From Chrysophaeum taylorii (lineage: Eukaryota > Sar > Pelagophyceae > Pelagomonadales > Pelagomonadaceae): a stretch of DNA of 33,263 nucleotides. Location: positions 1 to 33,263 of the forward strand of contig JAQMWT010000492.1 of assembly GCA_029834535.1 (NCBI GenBank). The letters are read 5' to 3'. Made by a program: the position numbers and the translations under genes. The notes under the pieces were generated by a model. The model was not told where the DNA came from. It saw only the letters and a list, made by a program, of their open reading frames with translations, and searched no databases. Numbering within the stretch: the first letter of the stretch is position 1; each line of letters begins with the position of its first letter. Shown one piece after another: positions 9,362 to 33,263 of the stretch.

Positions 9362-9394
<33 letters not shown>

Positions 9395-15300: not shown

Positions 15301-18300
15301 GATCGGCAGATGGATTCTCGGTCGGTGAGTTCGAAGGCAACAAAGTCGGAGTGCTAGTAGGAGTGCTCGAGGGACTCGCGGTTGGCATCGAGCTCGGCAC
15401 GCTCGACGGTAGCGACGTCGGAATTGTTGTCGGGAGCGCGGTAGGACACGACGTGGGTACGGCAGTGGGATCCGAATTAGGCTGCGTCGTGGGTGCCGAC
15501 GATGGCGAAGAGCTCGGCATGCTTGTTGGATCTGCCGATGGCGTTTCGGTGGGCGTGAAGGTCGGAGCTGTTGTGGGAGACGACGACGGCATCGTCGATG
15601 GAACAGCTGAAGGAAACTCAGTCGGTAGGCTCGAAGGCAATACGCTCGGAACAATGGTAGGAGTGCTCGAGGGATTCGCGGTTGGCATCGAGCTTGGCGC
15701 GCTAAACGGGAGCGACGTCGGAATTGTCGTCGGGAGCATGGTAGGACACGACGTCGGCGCCGAAAACGGCAAGGAGCTTGGCATGCTTGTAGGATCTGCC
15801 GATGGCTTTCCGGTGGGCGTGAAGGTCGGAGCTGTTGTGGGAGACGACGACGGCATTGTTGATGGAAAAGCTGACGGAATCTCCGTAGGTAGGCTCGAAG
15901 GCAACACGCTCGGGACGCTGGTAGGAGTGCACGAGGGGCTCGCGGTTGGTACCGAGCTTGGCGTGCTCAACGGCAGCGACGTCGGAATGGTCGTGGGGAG
16001 CATGGTAGGACACGACGTCGGTGCCGACGACGGCAAAGAACTGGGCATGCTCGTTGGACGCGTCGAGGGCGTTCCAGTGGGCGCAGACGTTGGAGTTCCC
16101 GTGGGAAACGACGACGGCATCGTCGATGGAACAGCAGACGGCGTCCCAGTCGGTAAACTTGAAGGCAATCCACTCGGAACGCTGGTAGGGATGTTCGAGG
16201 GGCTAGATGAAGGTGTCGAGCTCGGCACACTTAAAGGCAACGAGGTCGGAATCGTTGTCGGAAACGAAGAAGGACGCGAAGTTGGCACGGCCGTAGGCTC
16301 CGAGTTAGGCTGCGACGTTGGCGCGGCAGTAGGCTCCGAGCTGGGCATGCTCGTTGGACGCGTCGAGGGCGTTCCAGTGGGCGCAGACGTTGGAGTTCCC
16401 GTGGGAAAGGACGACGGCATCGTCGATGGAACAGCAGACGGCGTCCCAGTCGGAAAACTAGAAGGCCATCCACTCGGTACACTGGTAGGGATGTTCGAGG
16501 GGCGAGACGAAGGCGTCGAGCTCGGCACGCTTAAAGGCAGCGAGGTCGGAATCAAGGTCGGGAACACAGTAGGACGCGAGGTCGGCACTGGCGTAGGATC
16601 CGAGTTAGGCTGCGACGTTGGCACGGCAGTAGGCTCCGAGCTGGGCATGCTTGTTGGATGCGTCGAGGGCATTCCAGTGGGCGCAGACGTTGGAGCTGCC
16701 GCGGGAAGCGCCGACGGCATCGACGACGGAGCTGCCGCGGGAAGCGCCGACGGCATCGACGACGGATCGGCAGACGGACTGGGCGTCGTCGGGAAATTCG
16801 AAGGCACCACGGTCGGACTCGGCGTCGTCGCGCTTGAGGGACTCGCAGTTGGCGCCAAGCTTGGCACGCTCGAAGGCAAAGACGTCGGAATCGAGGTCGG
16901 GACCCGCGTAGGTCGCGACGTGGGCGCGGCAGTCGGATCCGGTTTCGGGTGCGTCGAAGGCGACGTCGAAGGCGACGTCGAAGGCGACGAGGTGGGCGAG
17001 GCGGTTGGGCGTGCCGAGGGCGTCGCGGTCGGTGCGGACGTCGGCATCGCCGACGGCATCACCGATGGAACGGCAGACGGAGTCGCGGTCGGCGAGCTCG
17101 AAGGCAATCCACTCGGAACGCTGGTAGGGGTATTCGAGGGGCTAGACGAAGGCAGCGAGGTCGGAATCAAGGTCGGCAACAGAGTAGGAGACGAGGTCGG
17201 CGCTGCAGTGGGACACGATTCGGGCTGCGTCGTGGGCGCCGACAATGGCAAAGCGCTGGGGATGCTGCTTGGATCCGCCGAGGGTTTTCCAGACGGCGCG
17301 ACGGTCGGCACCGTCGTCGAGGGATTCGGAGACGGAACCAGAGACGGCGCCCCAGTTGTCGGCAAACTAGAAGGCAATACGCTCGGACAACCCGTAGGGA
17401 TGTTCGATGGGCTCCAAGAAGGCGCCGAGCTCGGCAGGCTCGAAGGCAGCAAAGTAGGACAGAAAGTCGGAACGCCGGTGGGATCGGACTCGGGTCGCGA
17501 CGAGGGCGTCGCGGACGGCAGACCGGAAGGCAACGCAGTCGGCGCACGGCTCGGTGCCAGCGTTGGGGTCGCCGAGACGTTGACATCGATCGCAAAGACG
17601 TAGAGGGCACCCGAATCTTCCTCCTCGCCGTCTGCGCGATGCGAGGCCACGGCGATAAGATCTTCGTAGACGCTCACGGCTCGGCCAAAAAAATCCCCGG
17701 ATTCCCCGTCGCTCGCCACGATTTTCGCGACCTGAGAAAGGTGCTTGTACAGGTAGGCCGCGCCCGTCTTGACCACAACCCCGTCCTCGCCCATCGCACC
17801 GGCGACGATCCACTTGTCATAAATCGACACCGACCTGCCCAGCCAATCGTCTTCCTGCGCGTCGCTCGCCGTCAGCTTCGCTACCTGACTCCACGGGTCC
17901 GCGTCGTCAAAAACGTAGACCGCGCCAGCATTTGAGGCGAGGTCGTCGTGAAACCTCGCGCCACTAACGATCCTCTTTTCGTAGATTCCCACAGACTCGC
18001 CCAAATAATCGCCCGAGCCTGCGTCGCTCGCCGTCAGCTTCGCGGTCCTCCGACACCCCTCGAACACGTACAATGCCCCCGCATCTTCCGCGGCGTCGTC
18101 GTCCCTCGACGCGCCGACGACGATGGTGTTGTTGTAGACCGCAACCGACGACCCAAAATAATCCTCGGGCTCGCTGTCCCCGGTGAGCTTACATACCTGA
18201 GTTCCCGTCGAAAGGTCGAAGACGTACGCGGCCCCCGCGTCCACCGTACCATTTCCATCCTCAAAATACGCCCCAACAACGACCGTGTCGTTGAAGATGG

Positions 18301-18727
18301 CCACAGACCTTCCAAAGTGATCGTCCTCTTCGCCGTCGCTGGCCGTGAACTTTGCAATCTGGACGTAACCCTCGAAGACGTAAGCCGCGCCCGCGTCTGT
18401 CGCGACGTCGTCGTCGTACCGAGCTCCAACCACAATACGATTCCCGTACACGGCGACCGCCCCCCCAAACTCGTCGTCCACACCTCCGTCGCTCGGGACG
18501 ATCTTTGCGAGTTGCAGAGTTGCGTTGAACACGTAAACGGCTCCTTCGTCTTCGAAGGCTTCGTCCTTGAACTTCGCACCGGAAACTACAGTTCCGTCGT
18601 ACAAAGATACCGTCGCCCCAAACCGGTCGCTCTCCCCGGCGTCGTGAGCCGTCAGTTTCGCGACCTGCGACACCGACACCTCGATCAAGCCGCCGGCACT
18701 GCCGGCGGCCAGCAGAACGAGCCACAT
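4149..18727 (-). CDS. Giant FG-GAP / Pro-Ser-Thr mucin / REJ-GPS polycystin-1-like membrane protein
   Basis: I assembled nine exons, all GT-AG and all in frame: 18727-8333, 8271-8181, 8135-6488, 6383-5483, 5421-5313, 5252-4636, 4597-4523, 4485-4375, 4310-4149. They total 14,109 nt, about 4,702 residues, ending in TGA. I start at the ATG at 18727 because it opens a signal peptide (MWLVLLAAGSAGG); the frame is open 42 codons further upstream. Order: seven FG-GAP blades (about 22-377); Pro-Ser/Thr repeat (about 385-2670); Ig-like and REJ region (about 2690-3500, with SPRGGGVESNPRRGQALNTT); GPS (3756-3787); TM1 (about 3833-3850); an acidic low-complexity linker; TM2 after FEHYVPLSIW; TM3; a poly-Asp stretch; then TM4, TM5 and more hydrophobic segments. 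This follows polycystin-1 up to about TM5, but there is no PLAT domain and no cation-channel domain. Likely a cell-surface adhesion or sensing protein. Intron 5 (5253-5312) decides whether the gene ends at 5302 instead. Confidence 0.75.
7261..7356 (-). other. GPS motif within the REJ protein
   Basis: The Cys/Trp framework of a GPS motif is present: CVSWGSSDLAWTTAGCS and then ACDCQ. It lies about 46 residues before the first hydrophobic membrane segment, as in polycystin-1 and adhesion GPCRs. The autoproteolysis tripeptide (His-Leu/Thr-Ser/Thr) that normally follows CxC is absent; the sequence reads CDCQVAIADSS. Confidence 0.65.
10690..17575 (-). repeat. 12-bp-periodic Pro-Ser/Thr coding repeat
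   Basis: About 6.9 kb encodes the four-residue unit P-[ST]-x-x (for example PSSMPSSLPTTAPTSAP), some 2,290 residues with almost no interruption. The phase is kept throughout, so length changes come in multiples of 12 bp. Such Ser/Thr/Pro stalks are expected to be heavily O-glycosylated and extended. The edges toward 10690 are more diverged than the centre. Confidence 0.9.
14673..16941 (-). repeat. Higher-order 300/264/240-bp tandem array inside the Pro-Ser/Thr stalk
   Basis: The plus-strand landmark CTGGGCAT(GC) and its variants recur at 14673, 14913, 15213, 15513, 15777, 16041, 16341 and 16641. The spacings are 240, 300, 300, 264, 264, 300 and 300 bp. A 300-bp unit is 25 copies of the 12-bp unit; the shorter units lack three or five of them. 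Neighbouring units are nearly identical, notably 16041 and 16341, which points to recent unequal exchange. Confidence 0.85.
17590..18664 (-). other. Seven-bladed FG-GAP beta-propeller domain
   Basis: Seven consecutive repeats of about 45-50 residues follow AK(L/I)xxSDxxxxDxFGxSVxxYxxxIVVGAxxxDxxxxxxGAxYVF. Seven is the number needed to close an integrin-alpha-type propeller. Several blades keep the Asp-rich loop typical of Ca-binding FG-GAP repeats (for example DAGESDRFG and DGEEDDHFG). The propeller follows the signal peptide directly, so it is the outermost domain of the protein. Confidence 0.85.
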
Positions 18728-20801
18728 ACTTTCGCGGAAAAAAACGCAGCGGGGGCTGGGGCAAAAATTTATTTTATTTTCGATTGCGTCATTTAATTTT
18801 TGGTTCACCATCATCGCGTGCGAACGTCGTGACGCAGTGGCCGTTATCGGCAACGTTATCCGGAACGATGCGATGCAGATTCGTACATTGTTGGAGAGCG
18901 CGTCTCGTGGCCCGTCACGCCGCCGCCGCCGCTAAAGGAAGCAACGAACAACCCAGGGTTCGCGTTCGCGCGGCGAGTTCGGGTTCGCTACTGCGTTCGC
19001 GGCGAGTTCGGGGGTTCGCGCGCTGTTGGGATGCGAACCACAGCGAACGCTGCGGACCGAGTTCGCGCGTCGAACGCGAACCAGGTCGTGGTTCGTTGCT
19101 TCCTTTACTCGTGGGTCCTACGACGTCTGCGACGACGAAACTGCACAACCGCCAGATCCGCATCTCAACCGAGGTCTCATCAACCGACGGCGAGCTAGCT
19201 CCCCTCGGCGCGCGTTTCTATTGGAGTTTCTCGACCCCAATGAGCGCCGGGTGGGAAGCGAATTCGGTTGTACATAGCATAACCTTCCTTCGAGACGAGT
19301 CGCGCAGTACAGGCCTCTTGGTCTCATTTTTGCTGCTATGGATTCACGCTGCTGAATATTATGATCGCAGCAACTTTGTGCCGCCGAAAGTCGCATAGTT
19401 TCACCCCGGTGGGTAAAGCAGGGCGACGACGACGCGCCGACATGCGAGCGTGTCTTCAATAATATGCGTGCCGTCGGGTGATCTTGGTTGGCGATGAGAC
19501 CTGGCTTGAAGAAGCAACAGAGTTATGGCACACGTTCTGCCCGAATGAATACGAGGACGACGACGCCGCCAATACAACGAAACACGCTGTAACCTAGAAA
19601 ACCCTGAGCTGCACGCGGAAGCCGATGATGACGACGAGGACGCCGCAAAAAAAAAGGCCGGCCCCCAAAGAAGAACACACGGCCAGAGCCAGTCACGGGT
19701 AAGAACAGCGACGCGAAAGAAGATGATGCCCAACCGACGGTGAAAGTGATGAGTCGATATTTGGGACGCAACACTCGTGTCGTCGTCGTCGTCTTCTTCT
19801 TCGATGTCTCCACGAAGGAAGCCGCCGACACCATGCACTCGGGGCTCGTATACTTGGAAACGCAAATCGACGTGCTGAATCTACAACAATATTATGGCAT
19901 CGAAGAACGCCCGCCCAGCGCTGGAAGAGAGAGCGCGTTGTGGTTCAAGAACAACTGGCGGTGACGAAGATCGGGTTAAGGCTGATCCATCAACGCTCAT
20001 TGCGAAAAACTGATCGACGCGCACACGCATCAGTCTACTTCAGCACGATTAGTTATCCCCGAAGTAAAACGACGATTTTGTTGCGCCAGGAGTCCGCGAA
20101 TTGCCCCGAGAAAAATATCCACGCGTCGTGACAGCAGCAAATATGTCATGGAAATTTATAGTCGGAAAAAAACATTCGAATCAGTACTGGCGTGTCGTCT
20201 TCCTCTCGACGATATCGACCAACCTCTTTCTTTCGGTGGACGAGCGTTCGCCAACGCGCGCGAGAATCGTACGGGGGCTTCTCGCTCGGAAAATGGTGGT
20301 TGGAATAGCGCTCTGGATGATATGAATGACTAGGTACCCAAATTCGTCTGGCCTCATGTCATTAACGATGACACGTATGAGACCTTATTACACAAACTCA
20401 ACTTTTTCGCTGGTGGACCTAGCGTCGCATTTTTGTCGGAAAAAAATTAATGGCGATCTTTTTTTATGAAAACCAATCTCCTGTGTGGCCATGCTCTCAG
20501 GTCATAGATATCGCCGTGATGATGATAGCGCTCCTACCGTCGCGCTTGGAAGAAGGCGCTACACATCAGACCTGCTCGCCTCCCGGGTTGGCCGGTTATT
20601 ATTATTATTATTACTTAGCACCCGGGAAAAAAGTCCTCCCTCCGCGCTGGGAATCATGGGGTTCGGTCGGTTAAGCATAGAACGCGTCGGACAGGTCTGA
20701 TTGTTCGTCGACCTACACGTTCGCGGCCTGCGACGAAGTGAATTAAACGGAAAGAGTTTCCGTTAGTTGAATTTCGGGGATCTCAGAACAACAACAACAC
20801 A
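18728..20801 (+). other. Gene-poor interval with eroded coding fragments
   Basis: I find no intact gene in these 2.07 kb. Between 19470 and 20000 the plus strand gives short protein-like pieces in shifting frames (GDETWLEEATELWHTFCPNE; then FFFDVSTKEAADTMHSGLVY continuing to QQYYGIEERPPS). They suggest an old, unidentified element or gene. A TTA microsatellite lies at 20596-20613. A 10-bp inverted pair (ATCAGACCTG at 20565-20574 and its complement at 20692-20701) brackets it. Confidence 0.4.
18933..19107. mobile_element. MITE-like element with 17-bp perfect terminal inverted repeats
   Basis: TAAAGGAAGCAACGAAC (18933-18949) is repeated in perfect reverse complement at 19091-19107. Imperfect complementarity continues inward through GTTCGCGTTCG-type sequence. 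The 175-bp unit encodes nothing. The outermost TA on each side could be a TA target-site duplication (Tc1/mariner or PIF style) or simply the end of the inverted repeat. The interior carries several GTTCGCG/GAGTTCGG repeats. Confidence 0.6.
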
Positions 20802-22473: not shown

Positions 22474-22621
22474 TTCTCAACACTAACCACCTGTTTAGGA
22501 AAGAAAAAAAAAAAAAAACTTTTTGAGAGCGACCAAGACACCCACGCCTAGAAACGAAAGGGGAAAATTTTGTCGAATGAATATGCGTGGTTTTTGCGAA
22601 TAGATTCAGGACAAGTGCAGG

Positions 22622-22956
22622 CCAGTAAGTTCACCCACCTTGTCCCAATCTCTAACCCTAGTAAGTTCAGGTCTGGTCCCAGTAAGTTCGCCTGGCCACC
22701 ACTTTGTCCCAATCTCTATTAGAGACTCTAACCCGGCGTAAAAACCCACTCGTTGTGGTCACACCCACTCACCCCACTCTCCTTTGAGCTCGTCGCTCTC
22801 ACCCCCGCCAATCCAAGCTGCTTTGATCCGCACGCGCCGCCAACCTTTGAGTTTGAGTTTTCTAAAAACAAACCCCAGTAAGCTCACCTGGTCACTCGGT
22901 TCACCTAGTCCCAATCTCCAACCCCAGTAAGTTCACCTTGTCCCAGTAAGTTCACC
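22622..22956 (+). repeat. Six interspersed copies of CCAGTAAGTTCACC
   Basis: Exact or one-to-three-mismatch copies start at 22622, 22658, 22679, 22875, 22924 and 22943. Three are followed by a second shared motif, GTCCCAATCTC (22642, 22706 and 22908). The interval 22474-22987 has no gene. The array lies immediately beside the 3' side of the decayed Helitron helicase, so it may be part of that element's terminal region. Confidence 0.6.
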
Positions 22957-22987
22957 TACAGTGCCCGTGTAGACGCCGGGAGGGGGC

Positions 22988-23556
22988 TTATCGGTATTGC
23001 GCAGCACGTGTGGGGTAGGGTGGCGTCGTCGACTCAGATGAGTATATCTCCTCGGGGTTGCCGATCGGCAGAGAGCCACGTAGAGCTGGACGTGGCAGAA
23101 GACGGACTTGTGGGAAAGAGGACGCCGACCTCGCGGGGCGTCTGGCCCTGGCTCTTGTTGATCGTTTGGCGTCTGCGGGCCTTAAGGGATACAGGTTGGA
23201 GGAGCCTCGGTGACAACGACACGATCGATCATGTATCTGGTACCGTTGCAGTGGCCGTGCGACGGGTCGACGTTGCGAAGACTTTAAGCTCGCGATCAAA
23301 GTCAGCATGCCGTTGGTTGTCAGGGAGTCGAAAACTCGACTGTAAAGAGCGAGGCGTCGACTTCCGACCCAACCTAGTCGGCCGAAAAGAACTCCGACGC
23401 CTCGCCTCCGGGAAAAAAAGGCCGCGGTCATGCGCGCGTTGTCAGCATCGACAACATCGTTTCGACGGGGCGTGAGAATGGCGCGCTGAAAGAGCCGCCG
23501 CGGGTCGTGGAAACAGTCTGCGAGGTCGCCGTAGACGGCTTGGAGGATCAATGCCT
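22988..23556 (-). pseudogene. Helitron PIF1-like helicase fragment, frameshifted (copy 1)
   Basis: Minus-strand peptides match the C-terminal part of Helitron RepHel helicases in the right order but in different frames. They are DLADCFHDPRRLFQRAILTP with DVVDADNARM; then PGGEASEFFSAD after a frameshift in a T-run; then LRNVDPSHGHCNGTRYMIDR; then TINKSQGQTPREVGV; and finally VFCHVQLYVALCRSAT, which is the helicase motif VI region. Several frameshifts, an in-frame stop and an internal deletion before LRNVD show that it is dead. Helitrons move by rolling-circle replication; the Rep half is not present in the window. Confidence 0.8.
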
Positions 23557-23900
23557 GGCTCGCGGGCCTACCTGATCCTTACCCTAAATCGGGGGACAAC
23601 TTCACAGAGGCAAAGGCGGCCCAAACTCGCCGCATCTACCGTGAGTGGGGGATCGCCAACGCATTGGGCCGGGCTCGCTGCGCCCTCACCGCCCTCACCC
23701 ATGTCGCCGCCTCGGGGAACACCACCCCAGGCCGCCCGATCCCAGCAGGACGTCGCCCTTCGTCGCACATACGTCCGGCGGCAGCATGCGTACGACCTAC
23801 GGGCGGGGCCCGTCCTCTCTTCGCCTGCCCCACGACTCGGCGATGACCCCGACTAGGTCCCGCGTACTTATCTCCGCCCGTCAGGCACATCCCTCCTGCC
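23557..23900 (+). other. Interval without a supported gene
   Basis: One plus-strand frame reads sensibly for about 50 codons (GDNFTEAKAAQTRRIYREWG then IANALGRARCALTALTHVAA) but has no start, no family signature and runs into low-complexity Pro/Arg sequence. It may be a relic inside the Helitron-derived block. I see nothing else here. Confidence 0.3.
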
Positions 23901-24072
23901 CCACAAACCACCCACATCCTTCATGCTCCCCACACACACACCCCTCTTAGCAGTCGACATTTAAAGGCAACCCCACAAACCCCCCCACATCCTTCACGCC
24001 CCCACACACACACCCCCTCTTAGCAGTCGACATTTAAAGACAAACCCACAAACCCACCCACATCCTTCATGC
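23901..24072 (+). repeat. 72-73 bp tandem repeat, about 2.4 copies
   Basis: The units begin at CCACAAACC (23901), 23973 and 24046. They share ACATCCTTCA, a CA-dinucleotide run and CTCTTAGCAGTCGACATTTA. It is noncoding and C/A-rich on the plus strand. Confidence 0.75.
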
Positions 24073-24077
24073 CGGAG

Positions 24078-24131
24078 TATGAAATGGAACCTTCCACATT
24101 CGTCTATGAAATGGAACGTTCCACGTTCGAG
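24078..24131 (+). repeat. 27-bp direct duplication with internal palindrome
   Basis: TATGAAATGGAAC-TTCCAC-TTCG occurs at 24078-24104 and again at 24105-24131. The second copy contains the palindrome TGGAACGTTCCA. It abuts the second helicase fragment. Confidence 0.6.
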
Positions 24132-24140
24132 CAAAGGTTG

Positions 24141-24283
24141 AGGTCTTCGCAACCTCGACCCGTCGCACGGCTACTGCAACGGTATCAGATACATGATCGA
24201 TCGTGTCGTGTCACCGAGGCTCCTCGAACCATCATCCCTTAAGGCCCGCCGACGCCAAACGATCAACAAGAGCCAGGGGCAGA
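24141..24283 (+). pseudogene. Helitron PIF1-like helicase fragment (copy 2), cut by the LTR element
   Basis: The plus strand encodes LRNLDPSHGYCNGIRYMIDR and then, after a frame change, RRRQTINKSQGQ. This is the same helicase segment as copy 1 in opposite orientation (143 bp against 23141-23283, roughly nine bases in ten identical by eye). Similarity stops abruptly after the SQGQ codons at 24283, where the LTR begins. The copy was therefore interrupted by the retrotransposon, and its continuation should lie beyond the element's far end, outside the window. Confidence 0.8.
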
Positions 24284-24622
24284 TGTGGCGTAAGAAGAGT
24301 TTTAGGGGCTACCTGGCGTGCCTTCGAATCCTGGCTCGCCGATCGCGTCCGTGCCCTTGGTGGGATCACTGGACGAGGATGGCCGTTCTCCCGCCACGCG
24401 ACCACAAACAACTTCCGTGCCTGGTCCTCTCAACTTGAGGATCGGCTGTTGCTTTATGATCAAGGATAATCGAAAAACAGAAATCAGGGTGACACATGTC
24501 GTGACGGAAAAGGAAGATGATGTCATAGAAAACTCTGACATCATCGGAACGGAGTAGGGTGCCCCTGATAAGGGGGGCCCTAGAAGAGGGGTAAGCCTTA
24601 GGGGGCGGGAGTTGCCGCCACA
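24284..24622 (-). repeat. 3' LTR of the Ty3/gypsy element
   Basis: The 339-bp segment begins TGTGGCG and ends CGCCACA, a 7-bp terminal inverted repeat with the canonical TG...CA ends. On the outside it starts exactly where homology to the Helitron fragment ends. On the inside it is bordered by a purine-rich stretch and the polyprotein stop 41 bp away. The five bases before it (GCAGA, 24279-24283) are the predicted target-site duplication. The partner LTR is not in the window, so the call rests on boundaries rather than on LTR-LTR identity. Confidence 0.8.
24516..24545. promoter_or_regulatory. Inverted TGACATCA pair in the LTR (bZIP/CRE-like)
   Basis: GATGATGTCA (24516-24525) and TGACATCATC (24536-24545) are perfect reverse complements separated by 10 bp. 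TGACATCA resembles CRE/AP-1 half-site combinations bound by bZIP factors, and a nearby GTGACG (24501-24506) adds another. LTRs carry the element's promoter, so this is a plausible enhancer; it could also form a hairpin in the transcript. Confidence 0.35.
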
Positions 24623-24634
24623 GGACTCCCCTGG
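24623..24634 (-). other. Polypurine-rich tract next to the 3' LTR
   Basis: On the element's strand the LTR is preceded directly by CCAGGGGAGTCC, with the purine core AGGGGAG. This is the position of the primer for plus-strand DNA synthesis. It is short, and assigned mainly by location. Confidence 0.4.
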
Positions 24635-24662
24635 TAAGAATTCGAGCTGCCCCAGCGAGGAG

Positions 24663-27600
24663 CTAGCGCGAGGAGCGCGGCTTCGCCTTACGAGCATCTC
24701 GTGAACGAATCTTCTGATAAACGCGGGTGATGATCGGTTCAGGAACTCGACCACTGCGTAAAGTAAACTTGGGGACCAACACATCAATCTCGTGTGGAGC
24801 GAAATCCGTGACACAAGGAGTTGTGTTGGAGGAAATTCGGGACTTGTCGGTGAAACTTCGACCTTCAACGTCCTTGAATTCGGGCTTGAGCTTGCGGTGC
24901 GAAAGGTGAGAGGTCGGCTTGAAATAAGCGACATCATCGTTCGGACCCAAATCGGAATAGAAATGTAGAGCAACACGATCATTTTGGTAATCGTAAGGCT
25001 CGTAAACTTCGGCAACATAAATCTTCTTGCGCCAATCAGAGCGCTTCCGGTCAGGAATCCGGAAAACAACAAACTTACCGTGCTGATAATCATCACGGAA
25101 GGTTTCTTCGGGTTTGCGGATGGTTTGATCAACGATCGGAGGTACCATCACCGGCGTGATCTGACTGACATGAACACGCCGCTCTTCGGGCGGAGAGTCG
25201 AGAGACTCAATCCTATAGGTGACCGGGGAGAGGCGTTCCTTGATAATAAACGGCCCTCGCCATTCCGGTCGAAGTTTGTTCTGAAGGAAAGGGATGTAGA
25301 GCAAAACGTGCGATCCTTCCTTGTATTCAACATCAACATGATCAGCATTGTAAGCCAATCGCTGTTTCTTCAAAGCTTTATCACGAGCCTCGCGGACGAT
25401 CTTTGTATAATATTTCAATCGTTCGCGAGTCTCGGCGACTGCATCAGAGCGAGTCTTCGGCAACAATCGTGTATCAAAATCCATGAGTGTGTAGTCAGTC
25501 GGCAGCATCGGCTGACGGTTCAGGCGCAGCATAAAGGGAGAAATCTGCGTGCCTGGAATAAACTTGCGGTTGTAGCAAAACGCAATATAATGAGCAAAGT
25601 CAGGCCAATCCGTGATGTTCCGGCCCTGAAGGCAAGCACGGAGGAAGGCCTTGATAAATCGGTTGACACGCTCAGCCGGGTTCGACTGGGCATGATAGGG
25701 AATCGTAGTTTGGTATCGTGTGTTAAAGAGATGGCAAAACTCGCGCATCAACTTGTTCACGAACTCTTTACCGTTGTCGGTACGAATCATCTGGGGGAAG
25801 TAGCCCTTGAGGAGAATGTTAAGGACAAAAGACTCGAGGACAGACTCAGCAGTCTTATCGTTCAAAACATCCAGAATCAAGAAATGTGAGAACGGATCAA
25901 AAAATACTAGAAGATACGTCTCGGGACCAGCGCTGGGCAAGGGTCCAAATAAATCCATGCAAAGAACAGCACCATCACCATCGTAGACGGGCTGCTGCAA
26001 GAGTCCAGCTCGTTTCGGCTCCGGTGTACGAGCTTTCTGACAAACTAAGCATTCAGCAATGAAGACTCCAACTTCGTTCGACATGTGAGGCCACCAAAAT
26101 CGTTCTTGGATAGCCTGGACGGTACTGTGACGTCCCATATGACCAGCGTTGACCGGAGTATCATGATAGAGTCGAATAATGCGTTTGCGCAACGTAGCAT
26201 GTGCAACAATCATCGGGTGCGAATCAACAGAAATGCGGTAAAGAACATCTTTAACGACTTCGAATCGTTCGTTCGCTCGGGAACGTCGCGGCGTCTGACC
26301 TTGGGCCATTCGGTAGCGAATATCCTCGCACGTAGCATCAGATTCTTGCTCACGTGCGATCTCAGCGAGCGTCATATTATCGGGTATCTTATCGATATAA
26401 TCTTTGTAAGCGGCTGCGTCCTTGAAGATCTGTGGCTCATCACGCGCACGGTTCTTCCGACGTTGTCTCGTAGCGTGAGACGTAGCCAATTTCATCGGAT
26501 CCTTTTCAGGGTCTTCGTCTCCGTCTTCCGGCAGTTCGGTCGTAATAAACGACATTATGAAGTGGCAGCCAGAGACGGGAACTCCTCGGTCATCAACAGG
26601 TCGGGGAAGCTCTTGGAACACTAAATACGCGTGGTTCAAAGGTTCTCCAAACTCGTCAGTCTCGATGACATGATCAATCGGGTTGCGGGAGAGACAGTCA
26701 GGGATACTCATTCCCGGTGACTTTCCCGGCTTGTAACCAAGTTCAGGGTCAAAATTGGCGAGGCGAATTGCCCAACGAGCAAGCTGCCCAGACGAGTGCG
26801 TCGCCTTACGTAAAAACGCCAAATTTCGGTGATCGGTCTCCAAAACAGTCCGGTGCCCTTCGATGTAGGCTCGAAAGTGCTCTAGAGAAAGTATAACTGC
26901 CAGCAGCTCTAGCCGACGGGGCTCATAATTTCGCATCTCCTTCGGCACAGCTCGGCTCCAGTATTCAATTACTCGTTCTTCTCGAGTCACTCTTCCGGCA
27001 TCGTCCTTGACTTCGACAATCTGGAAGATATATGCTCCAAGTCCATCCTTGGAAGCATCGGATCGGATCTGAAAAGGCAGATCATAATCGGCGTGGTAGA
27101 CTCCACGGGAATCAACCAAAGCTTCAATAATCGTATCCCAAGCTTTCTGACACTCGGGCGTCCACTCGAACTTTACACCTTCGAGGCATAATCGTCTCAA
27201 CGGTTCCACAATCTTCGAGTAGCCCTTCACATATCGCCGGCAGTAATTACTCATGCCGATGAAAGAACGTATCTGGGTCTTCGGGGAAGTATTCGGTAAA
27301 GTACCTGGAATCGGCATCTTCTGCAGTGCTTCCAGCGTCTTTGGATTCGGCTTCAAGCCTTCTGGGGTAGAAATGTGTCCCAGAAATTCTATATCATCTT
27401 TGAGAAGGTGGAACTTCGCGGTTCGACCGCTGTACCCTCTCTGTGCCAAATGACACATCACTTCGATCAAAACTTGTAAATGTCGATGAAGATCGTCGGA
27501 TCCCATCATAATATCGTCAACAAACGCAACCAAGTCTTGATACATCCATTTCGAAAGGTCGCTCGCCATTTGCTTGCAGAAAAGAGCTCCGGCCGTCTTC

Positions 27601-27734
27601 ACACCTAGAGGTAATCGCAAGAAACTGTGGGCGCCAAGTGGGCTAACCATCGTGACAGCGTCCTGCGCTGCCGGATCCAGACGAAGGTTGTGGTATCCCC
27701 ATCTAATATCAATGCATGTCCGCCATCGTCTCAT
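24663..27734 (-). CDS. pol: Retrotransposon polyprotein, C-terminal part: reverse transcriptase - RNase H - integrase
   Basis: This 1,023-residue frame continues in the same phase from the upstream ORF past a single TGA; the open frame actually resumes at 27761. Residues 7-80 complete the reverse transcriptase: first catalytic Asp in CIDIRWGYH, then LPLGVKTAGALF, then the FVDD box at 71-74. RNase H spans about 218-350 (RSDAS D226, LELLAVILSLEHF, and ETDHRNL D301). The integrase zinc knuckle is H532/H536-C562-x2-C565. The DDE core is D594 (MDLFGP), D653 (RTDNGKEF) and E688 (NPAERVNR). A GPY/F-type segment follows (LRPEWRGPFIIKERL, about 821-835). The last 150 residues are an unfamiliar, basic, aromatic-rich extension (HGKFVVFRIPDRKRSDW); it is not an obvious chromodomain. 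All catalytic residues of this half are in place. Confidence 0.92.
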   Translation of the reverse strand: MRRWRTCIDIRWGYHNLRLDPAAQDAVTMVSPLGAHSFLRLPLGVKTAGALFCKQMASDLSKWMYQDLVAFVDDIMMGSDDLHRHLQVLIEVMCHLAQRGYSGRTAKFHLLKDDIEFLGHISTPEGLKPNPKTLEALQKMPIPGTLPNTSPKTQIRSFIGMSNYCRRYVKGYSKIVEPLRRLCLEGVKFEWTPECQKAWDTIIEALVDSRGVYHADYDLPFQIRSDASKDGLGAYIFQIVEVKDDAGRVTREERVIEYWSRAVPKEMRNYEPRRLELLAVILSLEHFRAYIEGHRTVLETDHRNLAFLRKATHSSGQLARWAIRLANFDPELGYKPGKSPGMSIPDCLSRNPIDHVIETDEFGEPLNHAYLVFQELPRPVDDRGVPVSGCHFIMSFITTELPEDGDEDPEKDPMKLATSHATRQRRKNRARDEPQIFKDAAAYKDYIDKIPDNMTLAEIAREQESDATCEDIRYRMAQGQTPRRSRANERFEVVKDVLYRISVDSHPMIVAHATLRKRIIRLYHDTPVNAGHMGRHSTVQAIQERFWWPHMSNEVGVFIAECLVCQKARTPEPKRAGLLQQPVYDGDGAVLCMDLFGPLPSAGPETYLLVFFDPFSHFLILDVLNDKTAESVLESFVLNILLKGYFPQMIRTDNGKEFVNKLMREFCHLFNTRYQTTIPYHAQSNPAERVNRFIKAFLRACLQGRNITDWPDFAHYIAFCYNRKFIPGTQISPFMLRLNRQPMLPTDYTLMDFDTRLLPKTRSDAVAETRERLKYYTKIVREARDKALKKQRLAYNADHVDVEYKEGSHVLLYIPFLQNKLRPEWRGPFIIKERLSPVTYRIESLDSPPEERRVHVSQITPVMVPPIVDQTIRKPEETFRDDYQHGKFVVFRIPDRKRSDWRKKIYVAEVYEPYDYQNDRVALHFYSDLGPNDDVAYFKPTSHLSHRKLKPEFKDVEGRSFTDKSRISSNTTPCVTDFAPHEIDVLVPKFTLRSGRVPEPIITRVYQKIRSRDARKAKPRSSR

Positions 27735-27761
27735 CGCGAGAAAGGCTAAAGCATCATCTTG

Positions 27762-27764
27762 TCA
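27762..27764 (-). other. In-frame TGA interrupting the reverse transcriptase
   Basis: The stop lies between DSWPNI and QDDALAFLAM, in the segment joining the RLN-type motif to the first catalytic Asp of the reverse transcriptase. The frame is identical on both sides. TGA is the normal stop in neighbouring host genes (CHORD-like, PPR, REJ), so reassignment is unlikely. At this place related elements often carry Arg; CGA to TGA is one CpG transition. Confidence 0.85.
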
Positions 27765-30700
27765 AATGTTTGGCCAACTGTCATTGACCAATTGATCGTT
27801 GAGCTGACGTAAGTCAACTGCAGCACGGAACGCGTTTGACGTTCCAATCTCAGCTCCTTTCTTCGGAAGCATCAACACGGGAAAGCCCCAAGGTGAGTTG
27901 GCCGGACGAATGACTCCATCCCGGCACCACTCGCTGATCTGCTTGCGGAGACAATCGAGCTTCGCAGGCGTCAATCGGTAGGGCGTCATCTTAATCGGTC
28001 GCGGATTCGCGTCTTTGAATCGTAGAGACACAGGAGGCGAGTCCACAGGTCTCATAATCGGGTCGAAAAAGGCCCAAGAATATTGCACACAGTGACGGAG
28101 CATCAGTTTCGCCTCGTCATCTAAGTGCGGATTGTCAGGAATTCCCAGCTCCTGCACAACCTTGTCAACTTCTTCCTTTGTAGGAATTTTAACTTTCATT
28201 GCTTCGTTGTCCTTGACATGCTCAGGAGTCTGAGGCAGTGGTGCACCCTCGGCGTCGCGCGGCGCATCTCTCCATGGCACATCGAACTTTTTCTCGTATT
28301 TTAGTTTCACTTCCGGGTGGCTTTTGTTGATCCTCTCGCCTTTGACACGAACACTCGGCTCGCTCTTAATCTTCGGTTCCCGATCTCGCTCAGGATCTGG
28401 CGGAACGTCTAAATTTGGTTGTCGGGGGGGCCCAGCAGAAGAAGCATGAGACGTCCCCGGCTCATCTGTTGCAGGCGGAATCAACGGTACCTCTGGAGGT
28501 GTCCATTTGGTGCGATCTTGAAGATCATCAGTTGACACCCATCTTATGACACGTGTGCGCGTGTTTAACAGCGGAACTTGTACGTGACGAAGGGTGGTTT
28601 CATCAATTTGTAAATAATAATCAAACGGTCGGTCTGCAGGACTCAACGCTGACGGCAAAGCTTCGCCGCTCAGGTGAAATTCCTTGGTCACAGAGTTGTG
28701 CAGATCGAGCATTAATAAGGCTATCGTGTCAGGTGGCACGACGGACGCCAAGTGTTTCAATGAGGTAGTTTTGGAGAGGCCGGCCCAATCAAAATCAGGG
28801 GGCATCGTCAGCAACTCCGAAGTCATTTCCAGATTCAGAGATCTGTAATCGGAACGGTGCGGTCCTACGCGAAGCGGGACACGCGTAACAGTATAAGCTG
28901 CGTCTGTCGCGGCTCGTGATGATCCTAAATTGTTCATCTGAAGTAAATGTCGTTCGTCGGCGTAGCCAAGTGCGGCGGCGAACTTGTGCTGCATATTCTT
29001 GCAAGTCTTGGGAACTGCGCGCAAATGGAGCGGATGGCTGGAAACCAACAATCGCACGCGACAGCTCATCAAACTAGGAGTTATGTCGTAAAAATTGACG
29101 ACGTAAACGTAAGGGTGCAAACGTGCAACGTAAGAAATAATCGAAGCCTCCTGCTCTATCAACCACATGAAGAAACCAGCCATCTTGCATAATTTCATCG
29201 TCCAGTGGGTAGCGGTGACTCCCTTCCCAACATCTCGGGAAGTCAAGTTGCACAGAGCGGAGTGTACGCAGGGTGGCGACGCGACACACATCGACGACGA
29301 CCATTCCGCGTAGGGTAAATAAGATTCGATCAACCGTAAGGTTGTAACATAGCGACCACACAATGTGTGCTGCACCACAGGAATATTCGGAAAGTTCTTG
29401 TGGTGGATCTGGTTGGCGGTGTCCGACGCATCGAGTGCTAGCACGACTCGAAACGACGTCCCACACGTTTCGTTGGCTCGTTGGAGACCTAAAGTACTGC
29501 CTCCGGCTCCACTGAACAGCATCACCACCTTGCGATAAGTGATTGGAAGCCATTGAACCTTTTCATATCGGCGGCGGATCTCCGCTTCGGTGATCTCGCG
29601 GCATTTCTTTTCATCTTTTTCTGACCTTCGAGCGAAATCGTCGCTGCCTTCAGGTCGTTTGAGGGTGGACTTGTCCGTCATAGCGGTCGTAGCGTCCTTC
29701 TGCACCGTGCTCAGCAGCATCGGCGGGGGAGATTCGTCGCATCGCGTCAAGTGACTAGCGACAGAAACGGTGAAAGAAAGGTTCCCCTTGTCGTATCCTT
29801 CTTCACATTCATTCGTAAGTTCGTTGATTATAGAGACGTTCAACTCATCTTCGTACCTAACGATATCACCAATCGCAAGGGCTTCGCCTTGAGTGACGAT
29901 CGTCGGCACTTCTTCCGTGGCAGTAACCGCCACCCGAGCAGCGGACCGGTCGCGCTCTTCGCAAGAAGAACACATTCCTTCGACAACCCCCAACTGCTCG
30001 TTCTCAGCAAACGTAGCGACGAAAACCTGTCCTTTTTCCATAGGCTTCGACAAAATAACCGGTAGATTGTACGTTCGACCGGGCTCGATTTGAAGCGTGC
30101 GCGCAGCATAAGCGATTACTTCTCGCGCGTCTTCTCCCGGAGCTGGGGAGAATTTGGTCGTAGCATGTCCCCGCGTAGCCATGGCTACCTTACGTTCCGG
30201 CGGCGGGCTTCGGAGATCTTTAATCGTGCTCAAACGAGCATAAACTCGAGTCTTGACCAGGTCGAGACTCTGCCGAAAGGCATCGTGTCGATGATTGTAA
30301 ATCGGTACGGTTATCGGATTTCGATCGTAAATAGACCGAAAGGTCACGATTGGTGCATCGACTCGTTCATCCTTAACTTTAATCTTCTTGCGCCCGTAGA
30401 CAACTTGGGTTCGACAAAAACAGATCCGATCATGGGGAAAATCCACGATGGCGCCTAAAATTCGTATATCGCGCCCTCCCAACAGGAACAGGCAATTCGT
30501 ATCGGCTACAATAGCGACAATGGGGGCAGCGAAGTCGTCGGCGAAAGCGACCCGAAGGGCGATCCAACGATGGATCGTCGTCGTATTCAATCCTGATCCG
30601 TACAGCTTGCGCTTAATCGGAAGTTCGCCTTCATCGAAAATCAGCTGATCTTTGGTCAACTTTTTGACCATTTCTCGGCAAATATAAGAAACATCGGCCA

Positions 30701-32171
30701 TTCCATCGACACCGATGGTCGTCGAGAATTTCGGACCGTCACGATTCCTGTAGATGTGACAGGCCATAAACGTTAGAGAACCCGTATCTAAACAACTGAG
30801 GGTAATCAAATCATCTTCGATCGTCTTGCCGTCTCGCGGCGTCAACGAAGTGTGAGCACATCGGGCTCTGATTCGCTCATCTCCGGGGTTGGGCATCGAT
30901 ACCGCGGCTTGAGCTTTCGTATTATCTGTTGTTGGCGTCCTCGCCATAACGCTCGCGGCAGCCTCTTTATCTGGCGGCTTCCGCTCTTCCTCCAAGACAA
31001 TCTCAGAGGGAATCAGTGTTGGTAAGGGATCCTGGTCTTCGTGGTTCACGGAAGCAAAGGACCCCTCCCATAAATCATTCATTTCGTCTTTCCAGAATGC
31101 ATCTGTAAATCCATTCGTCGCCTGCTGATCCTCATCAGCATCGGCGATCGGTTCCGTGTCAGCTGCGGCTTTGAGTCTGCAGCTGCGCGGTTGTTCTGGT
31201 GTCTTCTTTAGCAAGAAATTCCGAGCTTTCGTCCACCAATCCTGCAGGTTCCACGTCTGCTCGTCTTCGTCACACTTGAGAACGCTGCTAATCTTCTTCA
31301 TAAGTCTATCCTTTTCTTCCGGCGGCGTATCCGTGTCTCGATCCGTAGTAATCGAAACCGTTTCGGGGGGGTCCGCAGGAAAAGATGGCGTCGTCCCCGA
31401 CGTCAACTCTGTCGTAAAATCGTCGTCTGCAATACTCGCGCTTGTCATCGTCTCGTCAGTCGAATGCACGCACGAGCTAGCACTGCAGAAAGTCATGTCT
31501 GGCTCACAGCCAGTTCGGTCGCCAGCGGTCGTCTCTGGAGGGCCCAAAGATAAGCCGATGGCATCGAGGGCTTCCTCATCAAAAATCAACGGTGGGTCGT
31601 CCATGGACGACTCGTCAAATAACGTTATCGCGGACACTGGTTCACAAAGTGTAGCTTCTTCATCTTCCGAATCTGAATCGCCTTCCCAGTATCGTGGAGC
31701 TTCAAGTTCCTCGCTCGAATCTTCGAGCTCATCGCTCGACATCTGCTCATAAATCTGTGCCAAAGACCGACGATTGGTCAGCACGTCGTTGGGTGGCTCG
31801 TCCATCAGTGGGCGAGCGAGATCTTCGAATGCGGCCGCGGCAAGGGCGTCGGCTGCGTCGTCGGTGCGGGTGTCCGTGTTCGGGTACACCGTCACTCCTA
31901 ATGGTAACTGTTGACCGCAAGGGGTCGTAAATGTGAGCGTTGCGCTCAAAAAACTCGAATTATATTGGTGTCGGCCTCCGTCGTATTCGTCGTCGCGCGA
32001 TCGGCGTCCTCTGTGCCGGCGCGAACTTCGACTGGGGCTCTTGTTATCTTTGTCTCTCTCTGGCGTCAGTTCGGCAGGTCCTAGTACCTCTGGATCGTCC
32101 CTGTAGGCGACTGGTGCTCCCAAGTCTATCCGAACCGGCTCATCGTCTCGTCTATCGAAACATCGACGCAT
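27762..32171 (-). CDS. pol: Retrotransposon polyprotein, N-terminal part: acidic region - protease - C5 DNA methyltransferase - start of reverse transcriptase
   Basis: This is a 1,469-residue ORF. Residues 1-430 are acidic and low in complexity, with a basic patch (SSRRHRGRRSRDD) and no recognised domain. Residues 450-590 are a retropepsin-like domain ending in LLGGRDIRILGAIVDF. Residues 680-800 form a beta-rich segment of the kind often found after the protease. Residues 878-1160 are a C5 cytosine methyltransferase. Residues 1165-1330 are a linker with a charged KIKSEPSVRVKGER stretch. From 1360 the reverse transcriptase begins (PVSLRFKDANPRPIKMTPYR; GVIRPANSPWGFPVLMLPKK; AAVDLRQLND), ending at the TGA. 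The first ATG is at 32171, but the frame is open back to a TAA near 32207, so translation may enter by a +1 shift from an upstream frame, as in Ty3. MTase and RT lie in one uninterrupted frame, so this is not a chance neighbour gene. Confidence 0.9.
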   Translation of the reverse strand: MRRCFDRRDDEPVRIDLGAPVAYRDDPEVLGPAELTPERDKDNKSPSRSSRRHRGRRSRDDEYDGGRHQYNSSFLSATLTFTTPCGQQLPLGVTVYPNTDTRTDDAADALAAAAFEDLARPLMDEPPNDVLTNRRSLAQIYEQMSSDELEDSSEELEAPRYWEGDSDSEDEEATLCEPVSAITLFDESSMDDPPLIFDEEALDAIGLSLGPPETTAGDRTGCEPDMTFCSASSCVHSTDETMTSASIADDDFTTELTSGTTPSFPADPPETVSITTDRDTDTPPEEKDRLMKKISSVLKCDEDEQTWNLQDWWTKARNFLLKKTPEQPRSCRLKAAADTEPIADADEDQQATNGFTDAFWKDEMNDLWEGSFASVNHEDQDPLPTLIPSEIVLEEERKPPDKEAAASVMARTPTTDNTKAQAAVSMPNPGDERIRARCAHTSLTPRDGKTIEDDLITLSCLDTGSLTFMACHIYRNRDGPKFSTTIGVDGMADVSYICREMVKKLTKDQLIFDEGELPIKRKLYGSGLNTTTIHRWIALRVAFADDFAAPIVAIVADTNCLFLLGGRDIRILGAIVDFPHDRICFCRTQVVYGRKKIKVKDERVDAPIVTFRSIYDRNPITVPIYNHRHDAFRQSLDLVKTRVYARLSTIKDLRSPPPERKVAMATRGHATTKFSPAPGEDAREVIAYAARTLQIEPGRTYNLPVILSKPMEKGQVFVATFAENEQLGVVEGMCSSCEERDRSAARVAVTATEEVPTIVTQGEALAIGDIVRYEDELNVSIINELTNECEEGYDKGNLSFTVSVASHLTRCDESPPPMLLSTVQKDATTAMTDKSTLKRPEGSDDFARRSEKDEKKCREITEAEIRRRYEKVQWLPITYRKVVMLFSGAGGSTLGLQRANETCGTSFRVVLALDASDTANQIHHKNFPNIPVVQHTLCGRYVTTLRLIESYLPYAEWSSSMCVASPPCVHSALCNLTSRDVGKGVTATHWTMKLCKMAGFFMWLIEQEASIISYVARLHPYVYVVNFYDITPSLMSCRVRLLVSSHPLHLRAVPKTCKNMQHKFAAALGYADERHLLQMNNLGSSRAATDAAYTVTRVPLRVGPHRSDYRSLNLEMTSELLTMPPDFDWAGLSKTTSLKHLASVVPPDTIALLMLDLHNSVTKEFHLSGEALPSALSPADRPFDYYLQIDETTLRHVQVPLLNTRTRVIRWVSTDDLQDRTKWTPPEVPLIPPATDEPGTSHASSAGPPRQPNLDVPPDPERDREPKIKSEPSVRVKGERINKSHPEVKLKYEKKFDVPWRDAPRDAEGAPLPQTPEHVKDNEAMKVKIPTKEEVDKVVQELGIPDNPHLDDEAKLMLRHCVQYSWAFFDPIMRPVDSPPVSLRFKDANPRPIKMTPYRLTPAKLDCLRKQISEWCRDGVIRPANSPWGFPVLMLPKKGAEIGTSNAFRAAVDLRQLNDQLVNDSWPNI
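28692..29540 (-). other. C5 cytosine DNA methyltransferase domain inside the polyprotein
   Basis: The canonical motif order is visible (residues of the 1,469-residue ORF). Motif I, VVMLFSGAGGSTLGLQ, is at 882-897 (AdoMet-binding FxGxG). Motif II/III, VVLALDASDTANQIHHKNFP, begins at 909. Motif IV, ASPPCVHSAL, is at 964-973 with the catalytic Cys968 in PPC. A Glu in the motif VI region is in WLIEQEASI. Motif VIII is SCRVRLLVSS (R-x-R at 1038-1040). Motif IX/X is SELLTMPPDFDW and, at 1143-1151, SVVPPDTIA, the counterpart of GNSVPPxxA. The target-recognition region between VIII and IX is short (about 70 residues). The ENV tripeptide and the GN of motif X are not conserved, so activity is likely but not certain. 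No PWWP, BAH, ADD or helicase domain accompanies it. Confidence 0.88.
30402..30824 (-). other. Retropepsin-like aspartic protease domain
   Basis: The second half is clear: LFLLGGRDIRILGAIVDFPH matches the LGxDxLxxxxAxIDF end of retropepsins. The catalytic loop is expected at TTIGVDGMADVSYICREMV. There D-[ST]-G-A reads D-G-M-A, while an intact DTG occurs 27 residues earlier in SCLDTGSLTFMA. Either the active site is altered or the DTG belongs to a shifted fold. Confidence 0.6.
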
Positions 32172-32676
32172 TCGTTGTCTTTTTCCAAAACTCCGACCAA
32201 ACGTAAATTAAATCTCGGTTGGCCAATAAATCCGTGCCTCGGGGTCGGAATTGTACTTCTTTCCGCTCTGGCGGTTTCTTCCTCAGGAAACATTGAGCTC
32301 GTATCCTTATCGTCGGTACGCTCATCTTCCTATTATCCATGCTGATCGTCCCATCCAATTCGGTTCCGGGCGGCAGCTATACTCATCCCTCATAGTATGT
32401 TCGGGATCTTTCTTTATCACGTAGCCATCATCATATGCAGGCTGAAAATCTTTGAACTCTTCGTTCGTGAGTAATACGCCAGGGCTTTTACTGAGCTCCA
32501 AAGGCAGTTCATGCGTTATAAGATTCTTCATCTCTTCCGCTTTCGTATTCATTTTCTCGGCCGTTTCACTCGGCCTCTCATCCACTCCATCGCTTCGAAT
32601 ATCGGCAATCGCCTCGTCACTAAAAATGTGTCGGCACACGAATGTCTGCCATCGTCAAAGGGAATAAAACATCTGC

Positions 32677-32734
32677 AAAAACGTCTGCAGTCGGTTCGTA
32701 CGAACCGACTGCAAAACGTCTGCAGTCGGTTCGT
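32677..32734. repeat. 28-bp perfect palindrome within a 35-bp partial tandem repeat
   Basis: The palindrome at 32686-32713 reads TGCAGTCGGTTCGT followed by its exact reverse complement. The 22-bp string AAAACGTCTGCAG plus TCGGTTCGT occurs at 32678-32699 and again at 32713-32734. The RNA would fold into a stable hairpin in the leader or gag region of the retrotransposon. Confidence 0.8.
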
Positions 32735-33110
32735 CGGGGGGGCTGCAAAAGAAGAAGGCGTCGTCCCCGACGTCATATCTGTCAAAAACTGGCCACCAAA
32801 GGGCACGTGACGTTCGATGGGTGTGTACTCAGGTGCGCGCTTATCATTCGAGGTAACCTCTGCGACGCATCGTCGATCGATCGTGGAGGCGACGTGCCAT
32901 CCACTTGAATGTTCGGAGGTAAACTCATAGCATCGAGCGTAGCAGCGGCGGGTCCCTTACTTTGGGCGTCATCGGCTGCACGGGGCTCGTAAATCGGATT
33001 CACACATAACTCCGGCGCGTCGTCAAGACCGAGGGTTGTGTCAGCTGACGACAAATCATATCGTGCCACCAACGGTGACACCGGGTTAGAAGCGATTGTC
33101 GGCTTCGACC

Positions 33111-33221
33111 CGTAGTTTAACGACGTTTCGGTCAAATTCTTCGATTCTGTGGGGATTTTGGTTTGGGTGAGCTCCTTCGACTTGGATTGCTCTTGATCGT
33201 AGTTTAACGACGTTTCGGTCA
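33111..33221 (-). repeat. 24-bp direct repeat in the gag-like region
   Basis: CGTAGTTTAACGACGTTTCG plus GTCA occurs at 33111-33134 and again at 33198-33221, 87 bp apart. It encodes TETSLNY twice in the minus-strand frame, which shows local duplication in that reading frame. Confidence 0.75.
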
Positions 33222-33263
33222 TCTCGGACGACTCGCGTCGTCGTCGCGCGGATTTCCTAACTT

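Follow-up and report, generated by a model that had tools for sequence, protein, structure and literature searches.

Known retrotransposons with C5-methyltransferases

C5-methyltransferases have been described in LINE and DIRS retrotransposons of Symbiodinium and in a Gypsy element of the charophyte Klebsormidium nitens (de Mendoza et al. 2018, PMC5890265). SymbioDIRS-Dnmt3 and SymbioLINE-Dnmt are, like the gypsy family reported here, present in many copies and under purifying selection, but they belong to different classes (DIRS and LINE; PMC5890265). According to the same paper, Symbiodinium Copia elements are without any DNMT domain, whereas a Copia family of Chrysophaeum taylorii has one. 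PMC12344493 does name Copia, referring to the 2018 paper, yet the text of PMC5890265, as far as it covers this point, does not bear that out.

KnitGypsy-Dnmt3 of K. nitens resembles the gypsy family of C. taylorii in holding its C5-methyltransferase within a Gypsy Pol polyprotein, and we also count as a likeness that it is intronless, with Ka/Ks below 0.2. Its domain is of the Dnmt3 type, with key residues conserved, and its repeat structure is DIRS-like according to a figure legend (PMC5890265). In contrast, the family described here has ordinary LTRs, a motif VI that reads EQE, and a domain located between a protease-like region and the reverse transcriptase (RT). Unlike the Dnmt3-type domain, the one found here appears to lean weakly toward DNMT2, the profiles compared being DNMT2, PF00145, Dcm and phage models. 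Most likely, the gypsy capture happened independently of those in dinoflagellates and in the charophyte. In the text that our literature search covered, there was no description of a C5-methyltransferase in a pelagophyte retrotransposon; as far as this search shows, a stramenopile host of C5 carriers, a gypsy element that combines ordinary LTRs with EQE at motif VI, and a carrier of the copia type are all new.

Organization of the element

The window (the whole stretch of DNA that was analysed, 33,263 nucleotides) is contig C492 of the 70.8-Mb, 697-contig assembly of C. taylorii, which was sequenced from laboratory-cultivated samples (PMC10366177). An earlier note, made from the letters of the window alone, had taken the host for a stramenopile, and C. 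taylorii, a pelagophyte, is one. It had also placed a C5-methyltransferase inside a Ty3/gypsy polyprotein at 28692-29540, giving no strand. We confirm a C5-methyltransferase-like domain within such a polyprotein, with borders at 28680-29558 on the minus strand. The minus-strand orientation, the cut and broken state of the copy, the replacement of ENV by EQE and a probable Ty1/copia capture had all been overlooked. The features are as follows:

24284..33263, minus strand: Ty3/gypsy LTR element, 5' part cut off (window compared by BLAST with ten flanked copies)
24284..24623, minus strand: 3' LTR, about 340 bp (matches both LTRs of other copies)
24663..27734, minus strand: ORF 2, 1023 aa, with the remaining RT, RNase H, integrase and a C-terminal extension
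25692..26198, minus strand: integrase zinc finger and core (PF17921, E 9.6e-18; PF00665, E 1.8e-11)
26751..27089, minus strand: RNase H (PF17917, E 1e-24)
27357..28118, minus strand: reverse transcriptase, one in-frame TGA in the window copy (Pfam RVT_1)
27762..32171, minus strand: ORF 1, 1469 aa, with an acidic N-terminal region, the protease-like region, the methyltransferase-like domain and the RT start
28122..28679, minus strand: linker from the methyltransferase-like domain to the RT
28680..29558, minus strand: C5-methyltransferase-like domain (profile matches, motifs, structure model)
30213..30830, minus strand: protease-like (retropepsin-like) region (motif only)

Alignments of the window with the ten flanked copies extend from the contig end to the end of the 3' LTR. 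The window copy is truncated at the contig end (33263), so that the 5' LTR and about 1 kb are missing, and it is broken by one in-frame TGA within the RT match and by an interruption of the frame upstream of 32171. An RT start, as had been read from the sequence, follows the domain in the same frame. RNase H, an integrase zinc finger and an integrase core come after it. The Pol order RVT_1, RT_RNaseH, Integrase_H2C2, rve, with all matches above Pfam cut-offs, is that of Ty3/gypsy. The upstream retropepsin is a candidate judged by its motif: DGMA occupies the place expected for DTGA (VDGMADVSYI in 25 of 28 copies), and the region gave no Pfam match and no protease among PDB sequence matches.

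The C-terminal extension after the integrase (about 170 aa; window 24663 to about 25178, minus strand) has no Pfam match at E 10. In Ectocarpus, Gypsy elements carry chromatin-reader domains and a DNA transposon carries an N4/N6 methyltransferase (PMC12477816); by analogy with the former, the extension could be a chromatin-reader-like tail. Directly adjoining the gypsy 3' LTR, window 23141-24283 consists of 150-nt inverted arms (91-92%) flanking a 73-bp tandem array. Parts of window 22608-23980 also match flanks of five of the ten other gypsy copies (C235, C320, C47, C5a and C552); this sequence is thus a recurrent gypsy neighbour and perhaps a preferred target. An ORF of 3524 aa at window 8279-18853 (minus strand) contains long PS/PT-rich repeats, and its N-terminus is FG-GAP-like by eye.

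A conserved passenger in a many-copy family

The domain occurs at no fewer than 134 places in the genome (134 of 1005 candidates scored), without a stop in 113 of the 134. By eye there are two subfamilies, with about 88-100% and 81-87% identity to the window. Complete elements displayed among the ten copies with flanks measure 9.8-10.5 kb, and most of these ten have LTRs that can be aligned with each other over about 300-341 bp. Pair identity reaches 100% in C5a, 98.8% in C164 and 98.2% in C5b; in the other seven it is 92-96% in the main pieces, some of them partial. LTRs start with TG and end with CA in the copies displayed, the window copy having the 3' LTR only, and 5-bp target duplications were seen by eye in three of five copies, with no clear one in the other two. 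Both C5 copies have a single ORF of more than 3000 aa. The gypsy family is probably young and still moving.

Sister copies with the domain in the same place, which the earlier note had proposed to look for, do exist. For 64 copies with both regions on one strand (105 of 150 and 105 of 151 matches used), we measured the spacing from the protease-like region to the stretch behind the methyltransferase. Among the matches listed, it is 1409-1631 nt in 61 of the 64, leaving domain-sized room, and 1276, 1736 and 10100 nt in the remaining three. Among the same matches, no sister copy lacking the domain was demonstrated. About twelve of the best RT places, by eye without a methyltransferase match, were considered as such copies; in C66 and C357 the spacing is wide enough to hold the domain, which indicates that the table of domain places is incomplete and that these places do not demonstrate absence.

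We estimated selection from pairwise dN/dS, excluding copies with less than 90% coverage of a region. For the domain (36 copies) dN/dS was 0.20 and 0.18 in the two low-dS bins and 0.056 between subfamilies, the latter value being indicative only because dS is near saturation there. The protease-like region (28 copies) gave 0.31 and 0.25 in its two main bins and 0.18 for 3 pairs, between-subfamily dS not being computable; for the RT (29 copies) the values were 0.14-0.15 and, across subfamilies, 0.02; for the spacer (22 copies) they were 0.34, 0.30 and 0.51 and, across subfamilies, 0.17. Within the main subfamily, the domain is therefore more constrained than the protease-like region and the spacer, and less so than the RT. 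In sum, the gypsy domain lies in the polyprotein at a fixed place in nearly all measurable copies, is under purifying selection and has its key catalytic residues unchanged.

These data bear on the idea that the domain is no more than an accidental likeness, a single insertion event or an artefact of assembly. In its favour, PF00145 covers just 56 residues of the domain, and in the ORF the score only equals the cut-off; yet the domain occurs at no fewer than 134 places, the spacing is fixed, selection is purifying and the profile match is significant. Copy number and constant place refute the idea, and we leave it next to no probability.

Sequence and fold of the gypsy domain

The motifs of the domain are FSGAGG (domain residues 15-20), SPPC (94-97), EQE (135-137), RVR (167-169) and VVPP (273-276). 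The earlier note had suggested a PF00145 search, and a match was obtained, spanning motifs I-II only. The whole ORF just reaches the cut-off with 22.0 bits; the domain alone scores 27.9 bits (E 2e-6). Residues 10-98, with motifs I-IV, are matched by a profile built from 27 DNMT2 proteins (hhalign probability 97.3%, E 1.8e-11; 34.9 bits with HMMER). Of the motifs announced, I, II and IV are present by profile, with PPC in 36 of 36 copies, while VIII and X, like all of motifs VI-X, are read by eye, and the RxR of motif VIII falls in a low-confidence part of the structure model. Past motif IV there is no significant sequence homology: the score of the DNMT2 profile was matched or beaten by 22 of 100 column shuffles for the C-terminal part alone and by 82 of 100 for the middle part.

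Searches with the domain, as ORF region and alone, returned no protein at E 0.001 from protein databases; against PDB sequences they gave weak DNMT2 matches only (E at least 0.033; with a profile, at least 0.34). Viral contigs, scanned with each of the two domains and with the gypsy alignment, yielded no relative, nor did prokaryote contigs scanned with that alignment. An AlphaFold2 model built with DNMT2 rows appears to show the whole C5-methyltransferase fold (residues 7-293), with a strand directly preceding E135 and low confidence for the stretch holding RxR (164-175). Use of the DNMT2 rows means that this fold is partly built in, and without an alignment the model has a pLDDT of 34. Foldseek ranks DNMT2 first for the model.

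The departure at motif VI raises the possibility that the domain no longer methylates, and that selection keeps it because it binds nucleic acid or has a structural role in Pol. Instead of ENV, 35 of 36 copies have EQE and one has EQG; the target-recognition region is short, no significant homology follows motif IV, and CpG sites bear no signature (see below). Against this possibility, the PPC cysteine, E135, R167 and R169, together with the rest of PPC and Q136, do not vary in any of the 36 copies, and residues 89-178, from motif IV to VIII, are the best kept between subfamilies (92% identity between window and C235, vs 71-83% elsewhere). We regard loss of methylation as unlikely, though a serious alternative.

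A second, Ty1/copia family

About 55 of the 121 PF00145 matches fall in another repeat family. L052:1136-4999 (C96) is a 1288-aa open frame, running on, with a protease-like stretch SLIDGGAS (by eye; no Pfam match), a methyltransferase-like domain (PF00145, E 6.3e-8) and an integrase-like core (E 0.0039, below cut-off). This domain has LPCQ and ENV, so LPC replaces PPC and ENV is kept. In L037:3-3250 (C524), an integrase-like ORF (3-1364; rve E 0.0018, below cut-off) is followed by RVT_2 (E 2.7e-40), and the integrase stretches of L037 and L052 are nearly identical. Integrase before RVT_2 identifies the second family as Ty1/copia, from one RT-bearing copy. The copia domain has at least 134 genome matches (126 of 643 candidates scored) and no relevant match among PDB sequences. 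The C5-methyltransferase-like domain of the copia family, which lies between protease-like stretch and integrase, was probably acquired in a separate capture.

One source or two

The copia domain scored 35.4 bits with Dcm (TIGR00675) and 37.5 with PHROG 363, its best models, and 3.6 with the 27-protein DNMT2 model; the gypsy domain scored 18.9, 28.2 and 34.9 bits with the same three, the scores being drawn from different parts of the domains (motifs I-IV versus II-VIII). Built without pelagophytes, the DNMT2 model gave 30.8 bits for the gypsy domain and 3.7 for the copia domain; a pelagophyte-only version gave 25.0 bits and no match. These profile scores make the copia domain Dcm-like, not DNMT2-like, although it has LPC for PPC and sits in a retrotransposon polyprotein; it shares ENV. 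The gypsy domain seems to lean weakly to DNMT2, about level with phage methyltransferase models (28.2 and 28.6 bits).

DNMT2/TRDMT1, the tRNA C38 methyltransferase, is similar to the gypsy domain in the region of motifs I-IV. The gypsy domain differs from it in its length of 293 aa with a shorter middle part, in its altered ENV and in having AYT at the place aligned with C-F-T, which is invariant in the 27 DNMT2 proteins; we therefore do not count it as a DNMT2 member. It might still act as a DNMT2-like RNA methylase on genomic RNA or primer tRNA inside the particle. The DNMT2 profile does outscore PF00145 and Dcm, and DNMT2 heads the Foldseek ranking; but phage models do about as well, the pelagophyte-only model scores lower, CFT is absent and the ranked structure was modelled with DNMT2 rows. 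On balance we hold RNA methylation to be quite unlikely.

An hhalign comparison of the gypsy with the copia domain gave no match (E 0.27). A common origin is unsupported, and one capture followed by strong divergence would be the less likely course. Two captures are the simplest reading of the sequences, and a fairly likely one. A fuller version, in which two independent captures from different enzyme sources both came to lie beside a protease-like region, and in which the gypsy enzyme methylates element RNA or primer tRNA as an RNA m5C methyltransferase, strikes us as very unlikely, since phage models fit the gypsy domain about as closely as DNMT2 models do; if true, RNA m5C methylation of this kind would be a new accessory function of retrotransposons.

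Other methyltransferase matches were noted in the genome. The host DNMT2 gene on C634 is the hypothetical protein CTAYLR_008533 (100% identity). A strong PF00145 match (61 bits) at C621:16962-17498, in a 2086-aa frame, is perhaps a host DNMT5-type enzyme; DNMT5a and DNMT6 are listed for pelagophytes (PMC9998398). A third, weak PF00145 group (profile positions 7-77, about 21 bits, frames of 594-980 aa) comprises:

C344:454807
C692:20570
C268:13693
C178:66354
C38:120632
C330:213673

Traces of methylation

Comparing 33 copies with one young copy, C-to-T changes affected 1.6% of CpG, 1.1% of CpA, 1.9% of CpC and 2.4% of CpT, with no CpG excess. CpG is not depleted either, observed/expected being 1.30 in the young reference copy and 1.40 in window bases 1-22400. 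The earlier note had suggested that the element could methylate its own copies; these counts do not demonstrate it. In a similar CG test by de Mendoza et al., SymbioLINE-Dnmt is named as significant (PMC5890265). Relative to the young reference copy, T-to-C differences peak at TpG (898 of 20116 sites, 4.5% vs 1.8-3.3%), which could reflect CpG loss in the lineage of the reference copy.

A proposed role in retrotransposition

To the following explanation we give an even chance: a Ty3/gypsy element captured a C5-methyltransferase domain, retained it within Pol, after the protease-like region and before the RT, and uses it to methylate its own nucleic acid. Pol would be packaged in virus-like particles, where the domain would bind S-adenosylmethionine and methylate the element's nucleic acid in cis, during or after reverse transcription, cDNA being the likeliest substrate. 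Methylation would then make it easier for the new copy to enter host chromatin or to persist there. The C5-methyltransferase-like domain of the copia family, in a comparable place, would answer the same need. Cis action on element cDNA during replication has been proposed for the Symbiodinium elements, and retrotransposon DNMTs of the published cases methylate CG de novo in yeast (PMC5890265).

Copy number, spacing, dN/dS, invariant catalytic residues, the motif I-IV profile, the model fold, the second family and the yeast precedent speak for this explanation. EQE for ENV, the lack of second-half homology, the low-confidence RxR, the DNMT2 rows in the model and the missing CpG signature speak against it. 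The occurrence of this kind of passenger in two superfamilies of one 70.8-Mb genome suggests a function of the domain in retrotransposition itself, as opposed to a leftover of one event.

With C. taylorii, stramenopiles join the lineages whose retrotransposons hold C5-methyltransferases, and Ty1/copia would be added to the carriers if the copia case stands. The capture of epigenetic enzymes by retrotransposons may thus be more varied than has been recorded.
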